DNA from: an uncultured Lachnospiraceae bacterium
Lineage (GTDB): Bacteria; Bacillota; Clostridia; Lachnospirales; Lachnospiraceae
DNA: 52,521 bases
NCBI GenBank assembly: GCA_944381575.1
Contig: CALWLS010000012.1
Location: forward strand, 1-52,521
Reading direction: 5' to 3'
Shown here: positions 5,126 through 52,521 of the stretch, in pieces
Position numbering within the stretch: position 1 is the first letter of the stretch
Layout: each line of letters begins with the position of its first letter
Position numbers and translations under genes: made by a program
The notes under the pieces: generated by a model
Seen by the model: only the letters and a program-made list of their open reading frames with translations
What the model was told of the DNA's origin: nothing
The model's database searches: none

Positions 5126-5701
5126 TTACATAAGTCCGGCAAAGCCGAAGAATGCGATCGACATGAGTGACGCTGTTATGATAACGATAGGCACACCCTG
5201 AAAGCTTCTCGGTATGTTATTGCCCGCAATATGCTCACGGATACCTGCAAGGAGCACGATGGCAATAAGATATCCGAATGCAGTTGCAAATCCGTTTACT
5301 ACAGACTCTATGATGTTATAAGTATTCTGGGCGTTGGTAAGCGCAACACCTAAAACGGCACAGTTTGTCGTAATAAGCGGCAGATAGATACCAAGAGCCG
5401 AATAAAGCGACTCCATGCACTTATGCATGAACATCTCAACTATCTGGACGAGCGCTGCAATTACAAGTATGAAAACGATCGTTTCAAGATATACCATGTT
5501 GAGAGGTATAAGGATGTAGTTATCGATCACGCTCGCAACGAAGGATGCTATGGTGATGACGAATACGACAGCGCCTCCCATACCGGCAGCAGTCTTGATA
5601 TCGGTGGAAACACCGAGGAAAGAGCATATGCCAAGGAACTGGCTTAAAACGACGTTGCTTACGAGGCATGAGCTGACAGCTATAACAATTAATTCAACCA
5701 T
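5126..5701 (-). CDS. rnfA: Rnf electron transport complex subunit A
   Basis: Integral membrane subunit of Rnf with about six helices, 191 residues from MVELIVIAVSS. The start is set at the ATG at 5701 because AGGAGG lies 8 bases upstream; the frame opens earlier with a TTG that overlaps the rnfE stop. Conserved features include NVVLSQFLGICSFLGVS near the N-terminus and the topologically inverted paralogy with RnfE. Together they form the ion-translocating membrane core. Confidence 0.96.
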   Translation of the reverse strand: MVELIVIAVSSCLVSNVVLSQFLGICSFLGVSTDIKTAAGMGGAVVFVITIASFVASVIDNYILIPLNMVYLETIVFILVIAALVQIVEMFMHKCMESLYSALGIYLPLITTNCAVLGVALTNAQNTYNIIESVVNGFATAFGYLIAIVLLAGIREHIAGNNIPRSFQGVPIVIITASLMSIAFFGFAGLM

Positions 5702-46752: not shown

Positions 46753-46782
46753 AATTTTATCCACGCGCTCCACTAGGAGCAC
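46753..46782 (-). repeat. Decayed CRISPR repeat
   Basis: AATTTTATCCACGCGCTCC and GGAGCAC around ACTA keep the TTTATCCACG box and a hairpin (GCTCC/GGAGC). The next relic starts 37 bases later, a normal spacer distance. Confidence 0.5.
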
Positions 46783-46819
46783 AATGATTCTGCAATTGGC
46801 TCAATGGAATGGATTTTGA

Positions 46820-46858
46820 CTTTCTATCCACACTCCCGTTACCCATGCAGGGAGTGAC
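46820..46858 (-). repeat. Decayed CRISPR repeat with six-base insertion
   Basis: TTTCTATCCACACTCCC, then GTTACC extra, then CATGCAGGGAGTGAC. The hairpin is preserved by a paired change (CACTCCC/GGGAGTG). Confidence 0.6.
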
Positions 46859-46981
46859 ATAAGGTGTTCACTATTACTCGTAATCTGAGTTGAACTGCTT
46901 AAAAGCTAAGATATTCCAGTATATGTTTCCATAAAAATATGTTATTCTATTCAATTGGAGCGGTAATGCCGCCCCTATTGT

Positions 46982-47137
46982 TTAATTGTCCTCAATGCCT
47001 TTCTGCGTCCGCCCAATCATTTTGCGAATAAGTTCGAGGGCTTTTTCTTTGTTGTCACTTTCAATAGCCTTCTCTATCTCTTTCTGATTTTCGATTGATT
47101 CCCTCAGAAAACTTTTAAATATTAGCGTATCGTTCAT
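46982..47137 (-). CDS. Small helical protein of unknown function
   Basis: 51 residues from the ATG at 47137, which follows AAGGGAG. The sequence MNDTLIFKSFLRESIENQKE continues as a charged amphipathic helix rich in Lys and Glu, ending RTQKGIEDN. No family recognised. Its upstream sequence carries the ACATTAGTATATTAT motif, nearly identical to that before the ribbon-helix-helix gene (see 47413-47441), so both may be controlled together. Confidence 0.6.
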   Translation of the reverse strand: MNDTLIFKSFLRESIENQKEIEKAIESDNKEKALELIRKMIGRTQKGIEDN

Positions 47138-47212
47138 GTTTTCTCCCTTCCGTGTTATTGCCATTTGGCGCATCCTCATGGCAATAATATACTAATGTTG
47201 TTATACGAATAG

Positions 47213-47389
47213 TTAGTCTATATTTTCCTCAATAAGATTCCTGACAAATTCGTTGACAGATTTTCCTTGAGCCTCCGCTGTAGCCTTTATTTTATCTTTC
47301 ATTCCTTTTTTTATATAGATATTCAGCCTATCATATGCTGTTTCGTTGTATTTCCTACTTGCTCTTTTCTGCGCTTCTGAATATGCCAT
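47213..47389 (-). CDS. Ribbon-helix-helix (Arc-like) DNA-binding protein
   Basis: 58 residues. It begins MAYSEAQKRASRKYNETAYD, then LNIYIKKGMKDKIKATAEAQ and GKSVNEFVRNLIEE, the beta-strand, helix, helix plan of Arc/MetJ repressors often found beside toxins and on integrative elements. GGAGG lies 7 bases before the ATG. It probably binds the ACGTTAG-type operators in its own promoter and in the neighbouring ones. Confidence 0.85.
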   Translation of the reverse strand: MAYSEAQKRASRKYNETAYDRLNIYIKKGMKDKIKATAEAQGKSVNEFVRNLIEENID

Positions 47390-47412
47390 GTTTCTTACCT
47401 CCGTTTTAGCTT

Positions 47413-47441
47413 ATAATATACTAACGTTATGTTCATGTCAA
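47413..47441 (-). promoter_or_regulatory. Promoter and operator of the ribbon-helix-helix gene
   Basis: On the minus strand TTGACA (47436-47441), a 17-base spacer containing AACGTTAG, and TATTAT (47413-47418). The operator-like sequence fills the spacer. Confidence 0.7.
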
Positions 47442-47462
47442 TCAATCTTCTTTGACTTCCTA

Positions 47463-47491
47463 TTGGCATTTTATGCTAACGTTAGTATGAT
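47463..47491 (+). promoter_or_regulatory. Divergent promoter with the palindromic operator CTAACGTTAG
   Basis: TTGGCA (47463-47468), a 17-base spacer with the perfect palindrome CTAACGTTAG (47476-47485), and TATGAT (47486-47491). Confidence 0.55.
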
Positions 47492-47522
47492 GATAACATA
47501 AGATAATAAAAGGAAAGACAAG

Positions 47523-47594
47523 GTGAAACTAACAGAGAAAAATTCTACAGCGTTAAACGAATATAACGAAGCTAAAAAATATAGGATATCATAA
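47523..47594 (+). pseudogene. Short GTG-started frame, probable gene remnant
   Basis: GTG after AAAGGAAAG opens a 23-residue frame (MKLTEKNSTALNEYNEAKKY and three more) that stops at 47594. Protein-like pieces in other frames follow up to about 47790, so this is probably the start of a decayed gene whose promoter and operator survive. Confidence 0.35.
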
Positions 47595-47789
47595 ACTGAT
47601 TCATCATCACAAATTATGAGATCAAGCAAGCTAAATTTGAATCATAGGACAAGTTAGAAACAGCAGCATAAATCAAGAGCCACCCGACAGGCTTAAATAC
47701 CGGAATAATGCAAGAATATACAAGAGAACTCTTAATGAGCCGGACGACAATCACATGATAATATACCAAGACAAAGGTTATAAACACAT

Positions 47790-47822
47790 ATTTTTATCCA
47801 CGCTCTCCATGCGGGGAGCGAC
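47790..47822 (-). repeat. Orphan CRISPR repeat
   Basis: A 33-base match to the array repeat with two substitutions (ATTTTTATCC start; GGGGAGCGAC end). No partner repeat is seen at spacer distance on either side. Confidence 0.8.
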
Positions 47823-47883
47823 TATATTCTATAGGAATATTCAAAATTTTAATAACTAAGAAATATCGTGCAAATAGAGAAAT

Positions 47884-48081
47884 TCATAATTCTCTCTTAT
47901 CTATTTGCAGAGATGCATCGCGTTCTATTTTTTCCACTATCAGCGTTTCCAACCACGGTGCCGGTTTTCTGGATCCCTGCTCCCAGTTTTCTATTGTCCG
48001 CTTAGGTATACTAAGCCACGCAGAGAGCTCAGCCTGAGTGAGACCAGCAGCTTCCCGAGCATTTTTTATCTTACTTTCCAT
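47884..48081 (-). CDS. XRE-type helix-turn-helix protein
   Basis: 65 residues: a single Cro/C1 helix-turn-helix domain, with AREAAGLTQAELSAWLSIPK and RTIENWEQGSRKPAPW. GGAGG lies 7 bases before the ATG. No effector domain. It lies between the orphan CRISPR repeat and the type I toxin locus and could regulate either; no partner toxin in the same operon. Confidence 0.88.
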   Translation of the reverse strand: MESKIKNAREAAGLTQAELSAWLSIPKRTIENWEQGSRKPAPWLETLIVEKIERDASLQIDKREL

Positions 48082-48152
48082 TTAAAGACCTCCATAATTC
48101 AAGTTTAACCTCAATGAGCCCATTTATAGATACACACAAATTTCATATTTTC

Positions 48153-48181
48153 TTGAGCATTTTTAGATGATAGCTTATAAT
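48153..48181 (+). promoter_or_regulatory. Promoter of the small toxin mRNA
   Basis: TTGAGC (48153-48158), a 17-base spacer and TATAAT (48176-48181). Transcription would start near 48188. Confidence 0.75.
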
Positions 48182-48215
48182 AGCTCAAGGTGTCACACGA
48201 AACGGTGGCGGTTAG

Positions 48216-48232
48216 CCCTCGCTCAGCGAGGG
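48216..48232 (+). promoter_or_regulatory. Hairpin in the toxin mRNA leader
   Basis: CCCTCGC pairs with GCGAGGG around TCA, 17 bases before the AAAGGAGG ribosome site. It may control ribosome loading. Confidence 0.5.
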
Positions 48233-48258
48233 AGTGTCCTCGCAGAAAGGAGGATGCT

Positions 48259-48327
48259 ATGACTGACTATGAAATACTTATGGTTGTTCTCACAATCATT
48301 GCGATATTTTTTAGTACAAAAAAGTAA
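48259..48327 (+). CDS. Small hydrophobic type I toxin-like peptide (holin-like toxin family)
   Basis: 22 residues: MTDYEILMVVLTIIAIFFST then KK. One hydrophobic helix with a short acidic start and a lysine end, as in Fst/TxpA/holin-like toxin peptides, which insert in the cell membrane. A very strong AAAGGAGG lies 6 bases before the ATG. It has its own promoter, leader hairpin and terminator, and an opposing promoter makes a candidate antisense RNA that ends in the same terminator. Too short for homology to be sure; the gene layout is the main support. Confidence 0.72.
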   Translation: MTDYEILMVVLTIIAIFFSTKK

Positions 48328-48403
48328 CCGCCCTCAGCCATGGTAAACGGTTACTTTTTGTAACATTTATTTAGGTTAACCGTCATCGGTGACACCTTTT
48401 CTT
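48316..48403 (-). ncRNA. Candidate antisense RNA antitoxin
   Basis: On the minus strand TTGCAA (48433-48438), a 17-base spacer and TATAAT (48410-48415) predict a start near 48403. The RNA of about 90 bases would end at the bidirectional terminator and overlap the 3' end of the toxin mRNA. Its 5' end holds GGTGTCACC and GGTTAACC, both self-complementary; the toxin mRNA begins with a close copy (AAGGTGTCAC, 48187-48196). Confidence 0.6.
48319..48359. terminator. Bidirectional terminator of the toxin-antitoxin pair
   Basis: AAAAAGTAACCG pairs with CGGTTACTTTTT; T-runs lie at both ends. It overlaps the last codons of the peptide. Confidence 0.85.
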
Positions 48404-48620
48404 GTCTTTATTATAGGCTGTATGTATATGTTTTGCAAGAGATTAATAATCAACTCATATATCATATATCACAACATTTTCAGCTTTATATTACTGCACC
48501 CTTTTCCACCACATTGTACTAAGTATTTTCATAAATAATATACTGGACCTCGTTTTCATACATCACGATTTCAACATTCCTAACGTCTTTTTTCATTATG
48601 CGCTTTCTAACATATCAACT

Positions 48621-48861
48621 ATTTCTTTATTCCTACCTGCGCTCTCATATGGGAAGCAATAGTATCCGTGCAGCATGGACGCGCTGTTTCCAATATTTCT
48701 ATTCACGATCTCCATGCGGAGAGCGACTCAATGTAGCAATTCAGCCAGTGGACGCAATAGAAATTTCTATCCACGCTCCCCATGTGGGGAGCGACAGTAG
48801 ATGCCCTCACCAAAATTCAGTCGCAGATATTTCTATCCACGCTCCCCGTGTGGGGAGCGAC
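48621..48861 (-). CRISPR. Leader-distal, variant end of the CRISPR array
   Basis: Three 33-bp repeats at 48695-48727, 48763-48795 and 48829-48861, with spacers of 35 and 33 bases. The first has two changes; the other two have CTCCCC/GGGGAG in the hairpin instead of CTCTCC/GGAGAG. A fourth, badly decayed repeat lies at about 48621-48659, again 35 bases away. Decay toward the left fits the trailer end of an array read on the minus strand. Confidence 0.88.
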
Positions 48862-50329
48862 GTGGATCCGGATTATACGGTGGAGGATATCCTGGAGGAA
48901 ATCACTGCGGACGGTGCCACGGCGTACATGAATGACCAAGATTTTGCTGATCGCGTGGCCAAAGAGGACAGGAGCCTTGCTAAGAAGATAGCTGACTTCT
49001 TCAAAGGCATTGCCGATACATTAAGGAAGCTCATAAATGAAAAAGGCATCAGGAATGTCAGCCGCGTGATGCGTGAAAATGAGGCCCAGTACCGCATAGC
49101 CGCCAATACCTGGTATAATGCGCTGGAAAAGGCAGCAGCAAGATATAATGAAGGGTATACAGTCAATGCTCCGGAAATGGACTGGGAGAGATACGCATTA
49201 AGGCTCAATGAAGAAGAGATAACAAAGGATTATATAGAGCATAATTATGAGATCGTAACAAACATGCCGCCTGTGGCTAAACTTACCGGACGGGAATTTG
49301 ACATAACGGAAGGTAAAGGTTCTGATGCTGTTATTAGATATTTTGATAGTTTAGGAAACAGCGTTGAAAATCCGGATGCCGGGATAATAGATCTCACTAA
49401 AAGGTTTGTCAAAGACGTGTTAGGCCATAAACCTAACAGGCGCAAGTTTATAATGATGGCAGCCGTACCTGATATTATTTCTGAAGGCAGGATAATAGAC
49501 TATAGAAAAGATTATGATGAGCAGAATTCAGACCGCATAACAATAGCGGCACCAATTACGATAAGTAAAAATAGTGGTTTTGGCGGTGATTATTATGGAG
49601 TTGTGTCGATAAAGGTCACACCTAAAAATAACAGGGCATACATATTGAATTATGCATATACAAAAAGAGAGGATGATCCTGTCATTAGACAGACCAGGGT
49701 AGGAATCATAGATTCCCAGAGACCTGGAACAGGATATCCTCTTGATATAGGTAGTATACTCGAAAAATTACAGAATTACAATGCACGACAGGATGGAAAT
49801 GAAGATGCAAGACTGGAAATTGAAGGGAAGACCGAAGATCTCCGTTTCCAGTTAAACGTGGATGAAGATCCTGAGCCGGGTTACAGGGACGATATCATTA
49901 TCAGCTCAAACAGGGATATCAAGGATGCTGCAGATACGCTTGGTACGCTGCTCAGTGCCATAGACTACATGCCCTTGGGCCAGGCTATAGAGCGCACCGC
50001 TAAAAGACTTAAGAAATATACGGCTACTGATACTTCCATAGAGGATATATCTTCAGGCCTTAAGTCAATGTTTAACTACATAGCTTATAACAATAATATT
50101 AACGGTGAGGAGATAAGCAGCATAGCGGCCGACTATGCCGGAGAGCTTATAACTAACAGTACAAAGACGGCGTACGATCCTGTAGCTGAGGCGGAGTACA
50201 GAAGATACGGGGACGCTATAAAAAGAAAGCTATACGTTCCATCTGCCGGCAGGTTTTGAGGGAGAGCTGGAAGCACTCGGAGATGTGGCGCGTTTAAGAC
50301 GTGAGTTTTTCAACACACTGAACATTACA
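48862..50329 (+). pseudogene. Phage-type large polyvalent protein gene fragment inside the CRISPR array
   Basis: 1,468 bases that start directly after one CRISPR repeat and end directly before the next. From 48862 a frame of 465 codons runs to a stop at 50259 (the frame is also open upstream through the repeats, by chance). The product has AYMNDQDFADRVAKEDRSLA and KKIADFFKGIADTLRKLI near its start, then KFIMMAAVPDIISEGRIIDY and YYGVVSIKVTPKNNRAYILN, resembling the LPD3-type domain of large phage and conjugative-element proteins. After the stop, the +1 frame continues with FEGELEALGDVARLRREFFN, which fits the same protein, so a one-base frameshift lies near 50255. Both gene ends are missing. 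Domain name is from memory. Confidence 0.75.
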
Positions 50330-52521
50330 ATTTCTATCCACGCTCTCCATGCGGAGAGCGACAGAGTCGGAAGCTTCGGAAAGATAAATCCAATTTTATT
50401 TCTATCCACGCTCTCCATGCGGAGAGCGACAGCAAGCTTTACAGCTTATTGTATTGGGAGCTTAACATTTCTATCCACGCTCTCCATGCGGAGAGCGACC
50501 AAGTATCTTTCCGTCATGAACCATACCAAGACATTTCTATCCACGCTCTCCATGCGGAGAGCGACGATGCACTGGTTTAAGGTCAGGTGGATAGACCGAG
50601 CCATTTCTATCCACGCTCTCCATGCGGAGAGCGACAAAATAACAGCCCTACGATATTGTTAACGTCAACATTTCTATCCACGCTCTCCATGCGGAGAGCG
50701 ACTCGGCTTCCGGATTATCAGGAGGGGGAGGAGCATTAGACCAATTTCTATCCACGCTCTCCATGCGGAGAGCGACTTCGGATTCATTCCGCCCTCGATG
50801 GCGCGGGTTGCATTTCTATCCACGCTCTCCATGCGGAGAGCGACGAGTCGCAGCTTTCCCAAATTTTACAGGAAAAGCGAATTTCTATCCACGCTCTCCA
50901 TGCGGAGAGCGACAAAGACAGAAAAAGAGAGTGACAGCGTTAAGACTATTTCTATCCACGCTCTCCATGCGGAGAGCGACGAGAACGGGAGTATATTGAT
51001 GAGTAGACGAACAAGAATTTCTATCCACGCTCTCCATGCGGAGAGCGACTACGGAACAGACTATGTGTTCAATTTCAGCAATATATTTCTATCCACGCTC
51101 TCCATGCGGAGAGCGACCTTTTGCGCCACAAGCTTGCCGTTGACACCATTAATATTTCTATCCACGCTCTCCATGCGGAGAGCGACTATCAAGTTCTTCG
51201 CCATCGCATTCAAAGTGGACTATTTCTATCCACGCTCTCCATGCGGAGAGCGACCAAGGCCTGTATGATTAATTCTTACGCTGTTTTGGAATTTCTATCC
51301 ACGCTCTCCATGCGGAGAGCGACAGTTTAGCCTTATGAACATTTACCGTGTTCTTATCATTTCTATCCACGCTCTCCATGCGGAGAGCGACGAGAAGCTG
51401 CCCCGAAATGTGATAGTATAGATGTATTTCTATCCACGCTCTCCATGCGGAGAGCGACATATCCTGTATATCGTAACAGGAGAAGAAGGCTACATTTCTA
51501 TCCACGCTCTCCATGCGGAGAGCGACCGTGGTTCCATGCTGTCGCCCTTGATCTGCAATCCATTTCTATCCACGCTCTCCATGCGGAGAGCGACGCTCTA
51601 CGCGTTATGCGACGCAAGCATTGGGGTCACATTTCTATCCACGCTCTCCGTGCGGAGCGCGACCCTGTGATATCATGAGATATTGTAGTATTTTCTGTAA
51701 TTTCTATCCACGCTCTCCATGCGGAGAGCGACTCAATTCCGGTGGGAAATGAAAGAGTAATTTAAAATTTCTATCCACGCTCTCCATGCGGAGAGCGACA
51801 GCGCTTACGTTTGCAGAGGCTGAGGATGCCATTATTTCTATCCACGCTCTCCATGCGGAGAGCGACGATTAAGGATCTGGAGAAAGAAGACGAAGAAGTA
51901 GTATTTCTATCCACGCTCTCCATGCGGAGAGCGACAAGCCACAAGCTCATCGGCAGTGCCGGCAACGGTATTTCTATCCACGCTCTCCATGCGGAGAGCG
52001 ACGGACGACAACCTAACACTATCAGAGGCCACTAAAGATTTCTATCCACGCTCTCCATGCGGAGAGCGACCAAGCCACGAATAGATTAAAGCTCAAACAC
52101 AAAAATTTCTATCCACGCTCTCCATGCGGAGAGCGACTTGACGATGTCTACAATGTATTAAATCCTGCACTGATATTTCTATCCACGCTCTCCATGCGGA
52201 GAGCGACAATACAGTAGAATTTGTTAAGACATTATGCAAAGATTTCTATCCACGCTCTCCATGCGGAGAGCGACCAGTCATATCGAATATTACAGTATCA
52301 TCACCTATAATTTCTATCCACGCTCTCCATGCGGAGAGCGACGGATGAGAGATCTTCTGAGTGGACTTGTGGAGGATGTATTTCTATCCACGCTCTCCAT
52401 GCGGAGAGCGACCTATCACACGGTCACCTCCTCGCTCACATTACCATTTCTATCCACGCTCTCCATGCGGAGAGCGACGATGCACTGGTTTAAGGTCAGG
52501 TGGATAGACCGAGCCATTTCT
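50330..52521 (-). CRISPR. CRISPR array, type I-C-like repeats, main block
   Basis: 32 complete 33-bp repeats (first 50330-50362, last 52446-52478) and six bases of another at the edge; 32 spacers of 33-41 bases, most 34-36. On the minus strand the repeat reads GTCGCTCTCCGCATGG, AGAGCGTGGATAGAAAT, with a hairpin CGCTCTCC/GGAGAGCG, close to known type I-C repeats of Firmicutes (GTCGC start, GAAAT end). That orientation puts the leader and probably the cas genes beyond the right edge. One repeat (51631-51663) has two substitutions. Spacers 50566-50602 and 52479-52515 are identical. No cas gene is in the window. Confidence 0.97.

Follow-up and report, generated by a model that had tools for sequence, protein, structure and literature searches.

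The type I-C CRISPR array of an uncultured Lachnospiraceae bacterium holds, between two of its repeats, a 1,468-bp interval (gap 3) which by its sequence is an internal piece of a phage gene, and two further oversized intervals (gaps 1 and 2) lie in the same array. We consider it probable that gap 3 is phage DNA captured via recombination of stored spacers with phage protospacers, and that gaps 1 and 2, which bear its signature, arose likewise. The signature, a spacer-length end that keeps its PAM at the point where phage DNA joins the array, is found at the left ends of all three gaps; phage origin was seen for gap 3 and for parts, not the whole, of gaps 1 and 2.

Three oversized intervals in a type I-C array

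The window, i.e. the whole stretch of 52,521 nt analysed here, is contig C12 of an 18-contig, 2.0-Mb draft genome. The array (about 50 repeats, repeat unit 33 nt) lies at the right end of the window and resumes on contig C2 (C2:56-1002) toward the leader. Beside the leader end C2 carries cas3-cas5-cas8c-cas7-cas4-cas1-cas2 on the minus strand. With the effectors cas5 (Cas5d), csd1/cas8c and cas7 together with cas3 and cas1-cas2-cas4, all seven on C2 next to the array, the array is type I-C and its crRNAs are read from the minus strand, in agreement with the sequence-only reading, which had assigned this type without any cas genes. Since the leader side is on C2, the left part of the array in the window is its old, leader-distal end. 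Ordinary intervals (n=46) measure 33-41 nt, with 45 of the 46 in the range of 33-37 nt, and 43 of the 46 ordinary spacers are unique. Near the leader end a three-spacer block is tandemly duplicated (C2:257-429 and C2:463-635). Neither RNA families (at gathering score) nor tRNAs were found in a scan of the window.

The relics and repeats that bound gaps 1 and 2 were exposed by a degenerate-repeat scan of the window, which in base shuffles (8 x 48.6 kb) gave zero matches at ≤10 mismatches. The features of the region are as follows, L and R denoting putative former spacers at the left and right ends of the gaps:

46753..46785, minus strand: most degraded repeat relic, 10 mismatches (repeat scan)
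46821..46858, minus strand: degenerate repeat left of gap 1, about 5 nt longer than the others (repeat scan)
46859..47789, no strand: gap 1, a 931-bp interval bounded by repeats and in part of phage type (repeat scan, PHROGs, comparison with viral contigs)
46859..46891, minus strand: putative former spacer L1, 33 nt, with GAA directly after it (46892-46894) (PAM offset test)
47216..47389, minus strand: RHH/Arc-like gene in gap 1, 58 aa without the stop codon (phrog_13890, E 4.3e-17)
47790..47822, minus strand: repeat between gaps 1 and 2, 2 mismatches (repeat scan)
47823..48694, no strand: gap 2, an 872-bp interval bounded by repeats and in part of phage type (repeat scan, PHROGs, alignment to gap 3)
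47823..47859, minus strand: putative former spacer L2, 37 nt, with GAA directly after it (47860-47862) (PAM offset test)
47887..48081, minus strand: small HTH gene in gap 2, 65 aa without the stop codon (phrog_2104, E 1.1e-10; HTH_3)
48487..48616, minus strand: decayed counterpart of 49015-49145 in gap 3 (same region of the polyvalent gene), opposite strand (protein E 3.1e-5; local search E 1.2e-8)
48695..48828, minus strand: two repeats and two ordinary spacers (48728-48762, 48796-48828), from gap 2 to the left repeat of gap 3 (repeat scan)
48829..48861, minus strand: repeat left of gap 3, variant CTCCCCGTGTGGGGAG (repeat scan, comparison with right repeat)
48862..50329, plus strand: gap 3, 1,468 bp flanked by two repeats and by sequence internal to a phage large polyvalent (LPD3) gene (repeat positions, Pfam, PHROGs, phage homologue; single genome copy)
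48862..48897, minus strand (crRNA strand): putative former spacer L3, 36 nt (abuts repeat exactly; PAM next to it)
48898..48900, minus strand: GAA, i.e. TTC on the crRNA strand, type I-C PAM adjoining L3 (sequence; TTC is used as the type I-C PAM in the excerpted text of PMC10810201)
50294..50329, minus strand: putative right-end spacer R3, length assumed to be 36 nt (abuts repeat exactly)
50330..50362, minus strand: repeat right of gap 3, main-array form (repeat scan)
50330..52521, minus strand: regular stretch of the type I-C array with 32 repeats, up to the contig end (repeat listing)

A 35-nt spacer (46786-46820) separates the relic at 46753-46785 from the next repeat, and gap 2 is bounded on the right by a repeat at 48695 with 2 mismatches. 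Gap 3 fills 48862-50329 to the base between the repeats at 48829-48861 and 50330-50362, so that the earlier claim of a phage-type coding segment bounded base-exactly by repeats holds. No repeat within 13 mismatches was detected inside gap 3 by the degenerate-repeat scan. The left flanking repeat is of full length (33 nt) and is a variant with 4 mismatches to the right one; given these differences the repeats left of gap 3 may, judged by sequence, come from an older or foreign array.

Phage-type genes within the gaps

The protein encoded in gap 3 matches Pfam LPD3 (E 1.9e-7, 31.7 bits against a cut-off of 27) and phrog_22978 of PHROGs (E 2.6e-13), a family whose profile spans 3,513 positions, and both its start and its end are internal to the gene. 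The first 465 codons are open in one frame; near 50.25 kb the frame changes, and a 25-residue piece in another frame, which aligns by eye with the continuing homologues and has no Pfam or PHROGs match, reaches the last base at 50329. A 2,666-aa protein of the viral contig L059 matches insert residues 9-454 with its residues 935-1359 in colinear order (27.8% identity) and extends past both insert ends, by about 930 residues before and 1,300 after. The prediction that the phage gene continues beyond both ends elsewhere was thereby borne out at the protein level, and the domain above the Pfam cut-off together with the colinear phage homologue places the insert in LPD3. In two other homologues the two halves lie about 650-700 residues apart; because of the colinear layout in L059 the architecture of the insert can be natural and need not result from an internal deletion. 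Within the genus, a Candidatus Avilachnospira avicola contig with phage-like genes (L066) shows 49% identity over 87 residues. Another genus member carries a decayed piece of the gap 3 polyvalent gene (L058:5297-5452, G313:C58; E 1.1e-4). A 33-nt direct repeat with copies at 5156 and 6518, one of them close to this piece, resembles a tRNA 3' end, and by sequence the copies are possible att sites.

The sequence-only reading had proposed to search phages for the insert and its ends. A contiguous homologue exists at the protein level for the residues aligned to L059, while no nucleotide-level relative was found. Searching phages by tblastn gave 3 records, each under 30% identity, and plasmids gave none. 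Against the viral contigs the protein search returned none, one of two alignments returned 7 distant relatives and the other none, and an exact 22-mer from each end of gap 3 had no match there, so far as found the homology being at the protein level only. Matches to the insert were seen in 3 of 299 family genomes and in 3 of 25 genus genomes, the own genome included in both counts, and at 1 locus in a collection of genome contigs. With the insert DNA as query, 10 of the 299 family genomes gave a match; one is the own genome, and the matches in the other nine are short, 23-42 bases. Insert positions 3-42, over spacer L, account for five of the short matches. We rejected these five as protospacers: in four of them the DNA codes for another protein that has a similar DILEEI-type string, and we read them as a common coding string; the proteins with this string are weak tblastn matches (E 0.03 to 1.5).

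The Arc-like gene of gap 1 is 66% identical to genes of two viral contigs (L067, L068); for one of the two, 214 aligned nucleotide columns show 68.7% identity. In gap 2 the fragment at 48487-48616 aligns to 49015-49145 of gap 3 with a nucleotide score of 63 (maximum 31 in 50 shuffles), 93 of 132 columns being identical and 3 containing gaps. Gaps 2 and 3 thus hold related phage gene pieces in opposite orientation, the piece in gap 2 being the more decayed one. Between gap 1 and gap 3 no nucleotide likeness above shuffles was detected, and gaps 1 and 2 have no nucleotide-level relative in the phage collection. Gap 2 also contains a frame for a 22-aa hydrophobic peptide (48259-48324) without Pfam or PHROGs match, which we take to resemble small holin-like type I toxin peptides.

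As the sequence-only reading had pointed out, an assembler could have produced such an interval by entering a co-sampled phage via a shared 36-nt spacer word and returning via another. The assembly is a draft whose contigs are broken inside the array, and CRISPR arrays are hard to assemble. It is also imperfect at this very place, as C2 starts with 55 foreign-looking bases in mid-array (C2:1-55, L023), presumably untrimmed Illumina adapter by their look, which are followed by the same spacer as at the end of contig C12. An exact 77-nt duplicate of repeat plus spacer (50532-50608 and, at the contig end, 52445-52521) suggests that its spacer occurs at least twice in the array, and the assembly was probably made with k=77, with a graph break at the contig end; a word of this size is longer than the 36-nt one shared on the artefact path. 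The insert is present in one copy in the genome assembly. Searches with its phage family profile and with the full phage homologue gave no other match on any contig of the 2.0 Mb, from which phage contigs could have been omitted. Finally, the two sister gaps share this form, and the decayed fragment in one of them is nothing that an assembler path would make. The single copy, the probable k and the sister gaps disfavour the assembler path, and we regard it as unlikely for gap 3.

GAA at the left ends

The first 36 bases of gap 3 are followed by GAA at 48898-48900, just as the sequence-only reading had stated, and this is the sole GAA within the first 60 bases. We asked of each gap whether GAA occurs at an offset of 33-37 nt from its left end, and found it after 33, 37 and 36 nt in gaps 1, 2 and 3, respectively. 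The impression that the left end looks like a spacer with the PAM attached therefore extends to two gaps that were absent from the sequence-only reading. The within-gap chance of a GAA at this offset is 0.080 for gap 1, 0.036 for gap 2 and 0.124 for gap 3, giving a product of 3.6e-4 for three gaps and of 0.0029 for gaps 1 and 2, which were not used to frame the idea; the window-wide GAA rate cubed is 4.4e-4. Among the 64 trinucleotides only GAA is present at offset 33-37 in all three gaps. The PAM of gap 3 alone is a weak argument (P about 0.12) and becomes strong only with gaps 1 and 2. As the left repeat of gap 1 is degraded, its distance of 33 nt assumes that the repeat ends at AGTGAC: a boundary 3 bases further left gives 36, one base further right gives 32.

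Two other accounts of the gaps bear on these ends. Were the gaps oversized prespacers inserted by Cas1-Cas2 itself, boundaries exact to the base on both sides, as they are here, would be expected, as for integrase products. The PAM-side end of such giant spacers, however, would be trimmed at the right, which leaves no reason for a GAA 33-37 nt from the left in three of three gaps. Furthermore all three gaps sit at the old leader-distal end, whereas every one of the 46 ordinary intervals stays within 33-41 nt, and the repeats flanking gap 3 differ at 4 positions; we consider this origin quite unlikely. Unrelated decay, in which mobile-element or prophage insertions broke up the old array end, would fit a degraded region with small regulatory genes and a decayed gene fragment. 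Against it, all three gaps start exactly at a repeat end and have PAM-spaced left ends, gap 3 comes from the interior of a single phage gene and meets a repeat end exactly at either junction, and the few gap proteins scanned include neither a transposase nor an integrase. We hold such decay to be highly improbable.

Three ordinary spacers match the own genome elsewhere, with targets on contigs C4 and C5. The spacer 48796-48828, just left of gap 3, matches C4:172373-172405 (L107:9374) with 3 mismatches (positions 12, 18 and 21, counted from the PAM), and its target is flanked by GAA on that side; this self-targeting spacer seems to be tolerated. Spacers C2:869-903 and 51733-51766 of the window match C4 (188.4 kb) and C5 (133.9 kb) with 3 and 5 mismatches, some of them close to the PAM, next to ATA and GTA instead of GAA. 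The target region on C4, with tape measure, tail, terminase and primase genes, is a prophage; the spacer target on C5 lies within an endolysin-like gene. GAA on the PAM side is thus found for one of three self-matching ordinary spacers as compared to three of three gap left ends. The ATA and GTA exceptions with mismatches near the PAM might be what a surviving prophage shows, as in escape; they are no proof of the PAM. Compared ungapped with all three gaps, none of the 46 ordinary spacers has fewer than 11 mismatches, i.e. there is no obvious self-targeting of the captured DNA.

Probable exchange between stored spacers and their targets

Capture through recombination of spacers with phage protospacers would have started, written on the crRNA (minus) strand, from an array repeat-R-repeat-L-repeat. 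Crossovers at L and R, either simultaneous or successive (integration, then excision), would exchange the R-repeat-L stretch for the contiguous phage stretch R....PAM-L. The product would be repeat-R-[phage]-PAM-L-repeat, with one repeat lost and 0.9-1.5 kb of phage DNA gained; it would necessarily retain the PAM of L inside, at the leader-distal end, and lose that of R. The predicted position of L's PAM at the left ends agrees with the GAA in all three gaps. Counting against capture are the failure to find a phage with nucleotide identity to the gap 3 ends, the ATA and GTA at two of the three self-matched targets, the degraded left boundary of gap 1, the 4 differences between the repeats flanking gap 3, the limitation of phage origin to parts of gaps 1 and 2, and the two relatives whose listed repeats have no such gaps. 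We infer that the left and right gap ends were once spacers, and on the same footing we suggest the order of crossovers and a selective filter. In type I systems Cas3 moves upstream of the PAM, and spacers gained by priming tend to share one strand; R would have the strand of L and be situated to its PAM side, and L may have primed the acquisition of R. Such a product would survive, as L would have no upstream repeat for crRNA formation and R, adjoining a repeat, would have no PAM. A whole integrated phage, on the other hand, would present PAM-bearing targets to active spacers and would be cut by the host's own crRNAs. Taken as a whole the interpretation given by the sequence-only reading is partly supported, its second spacer at the right end keeping the rank of a putative one.

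The same final sequence, including the PAM of L, would arise by half-integration, in which Cas1-Cas2 would attach a long phage fragment by its R end to the repeat that was leader-proximal at the time, and recombination with the resident L would resolve the opposite end; one pre-existing spacer would then suffice. No sequence feature here separates this route from double recombination. We know of no example of half-integration and think it very unlikely.

More tentatively, and as something possible rather than probable, the old array end may be a recurrent landing site for phage DNA, where primed same-strand spacer pairs would serve as crossovers and self-targeting would select the segment between the spacers, with L silenced and R disarmed. 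If this were true, arrays would store phage segments of kilobase length, and spacers would be retired by the very targets they match; beyond its 35-nt memories an array would trade sequence with its targets and retain such segments. The geometry predicted by double recombination, i.e. a PAM retained at the leader-distal and lost at the leader-proximal end with one repeat missing, is testable in those published arrays that contain oversized intervals, although we expect that array finders may split or discard such intervals. The model would also offer a natural test of self-targeting shaping recombination products and of the retirement of old spacers.

Recombination between spacers and phages is already known; new is this geometry, recurring three times in one I-C array. 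In staphylococci chromosomal CRISPR spacers are reported to recombine with phage targets (Varble et al. 2019, Nat Microbiol 4:956, as cited in the excerpted part of PMC8616872), and there too spacer-target recombination joins phage and array DNA. According to the same excerpt the outcome in staphylococci is that phage particles transfer the CRISPR locus together with neighbouring regions, whereas in the present type I-C array the phage segment was apparently kept stably in the chromosome in place of a repeat, and this apparently three times. Passages of PMC8616872 also envisage viral integration through solitary repeat units, which is similar in that viral DNA enters the host array by homologous recombination. 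That proposal, as worded there, uses repeats on the virus, while in the present case a spacer would be shared and no repeat within 13 mismatches lies inside gap 3. Array rearrangement via recombination between repeats, as described in an excerpt of PMC8047081, likewise changes the array with loss of a repeat; in that description it exchanges array DNA only and gains no phage segment, unlike the present gaps. Among the titles and abstract openings listed for open-licence PMC literature we found no description of phage segments captured between two spacers.

When the whole array was used as query, two metagenomic phage records matched in many places. We discarded these matches as spacer targets, as they look like repeats of other arrays and no spacer match was seen. 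Comparison of the spacers with the 24 other genus genomes yielded one 25-base match near chance (G319, E 0.02), and the array repeat was not found in these genomes at ≤3 mismatches. The genus relative G117 was considered as a carrier of the empty site and was dismissed: it has pieces of the Fic gene located left of the array, but no repeat match, and the surroundings hardly align. Among 397 family genomes (own included) two others contain a similar repeat, with 9 matching repeats each at ≤2 mismatches; these are evenly spaced without such gaps among the repeats listed, and more degraded repeats would escape. Compared with the main array, the two repeats left of gap 3 (48763-48861) show a compensated stem change (CCCC/GGGG), hinting by its sequence at an older or different array lineage.
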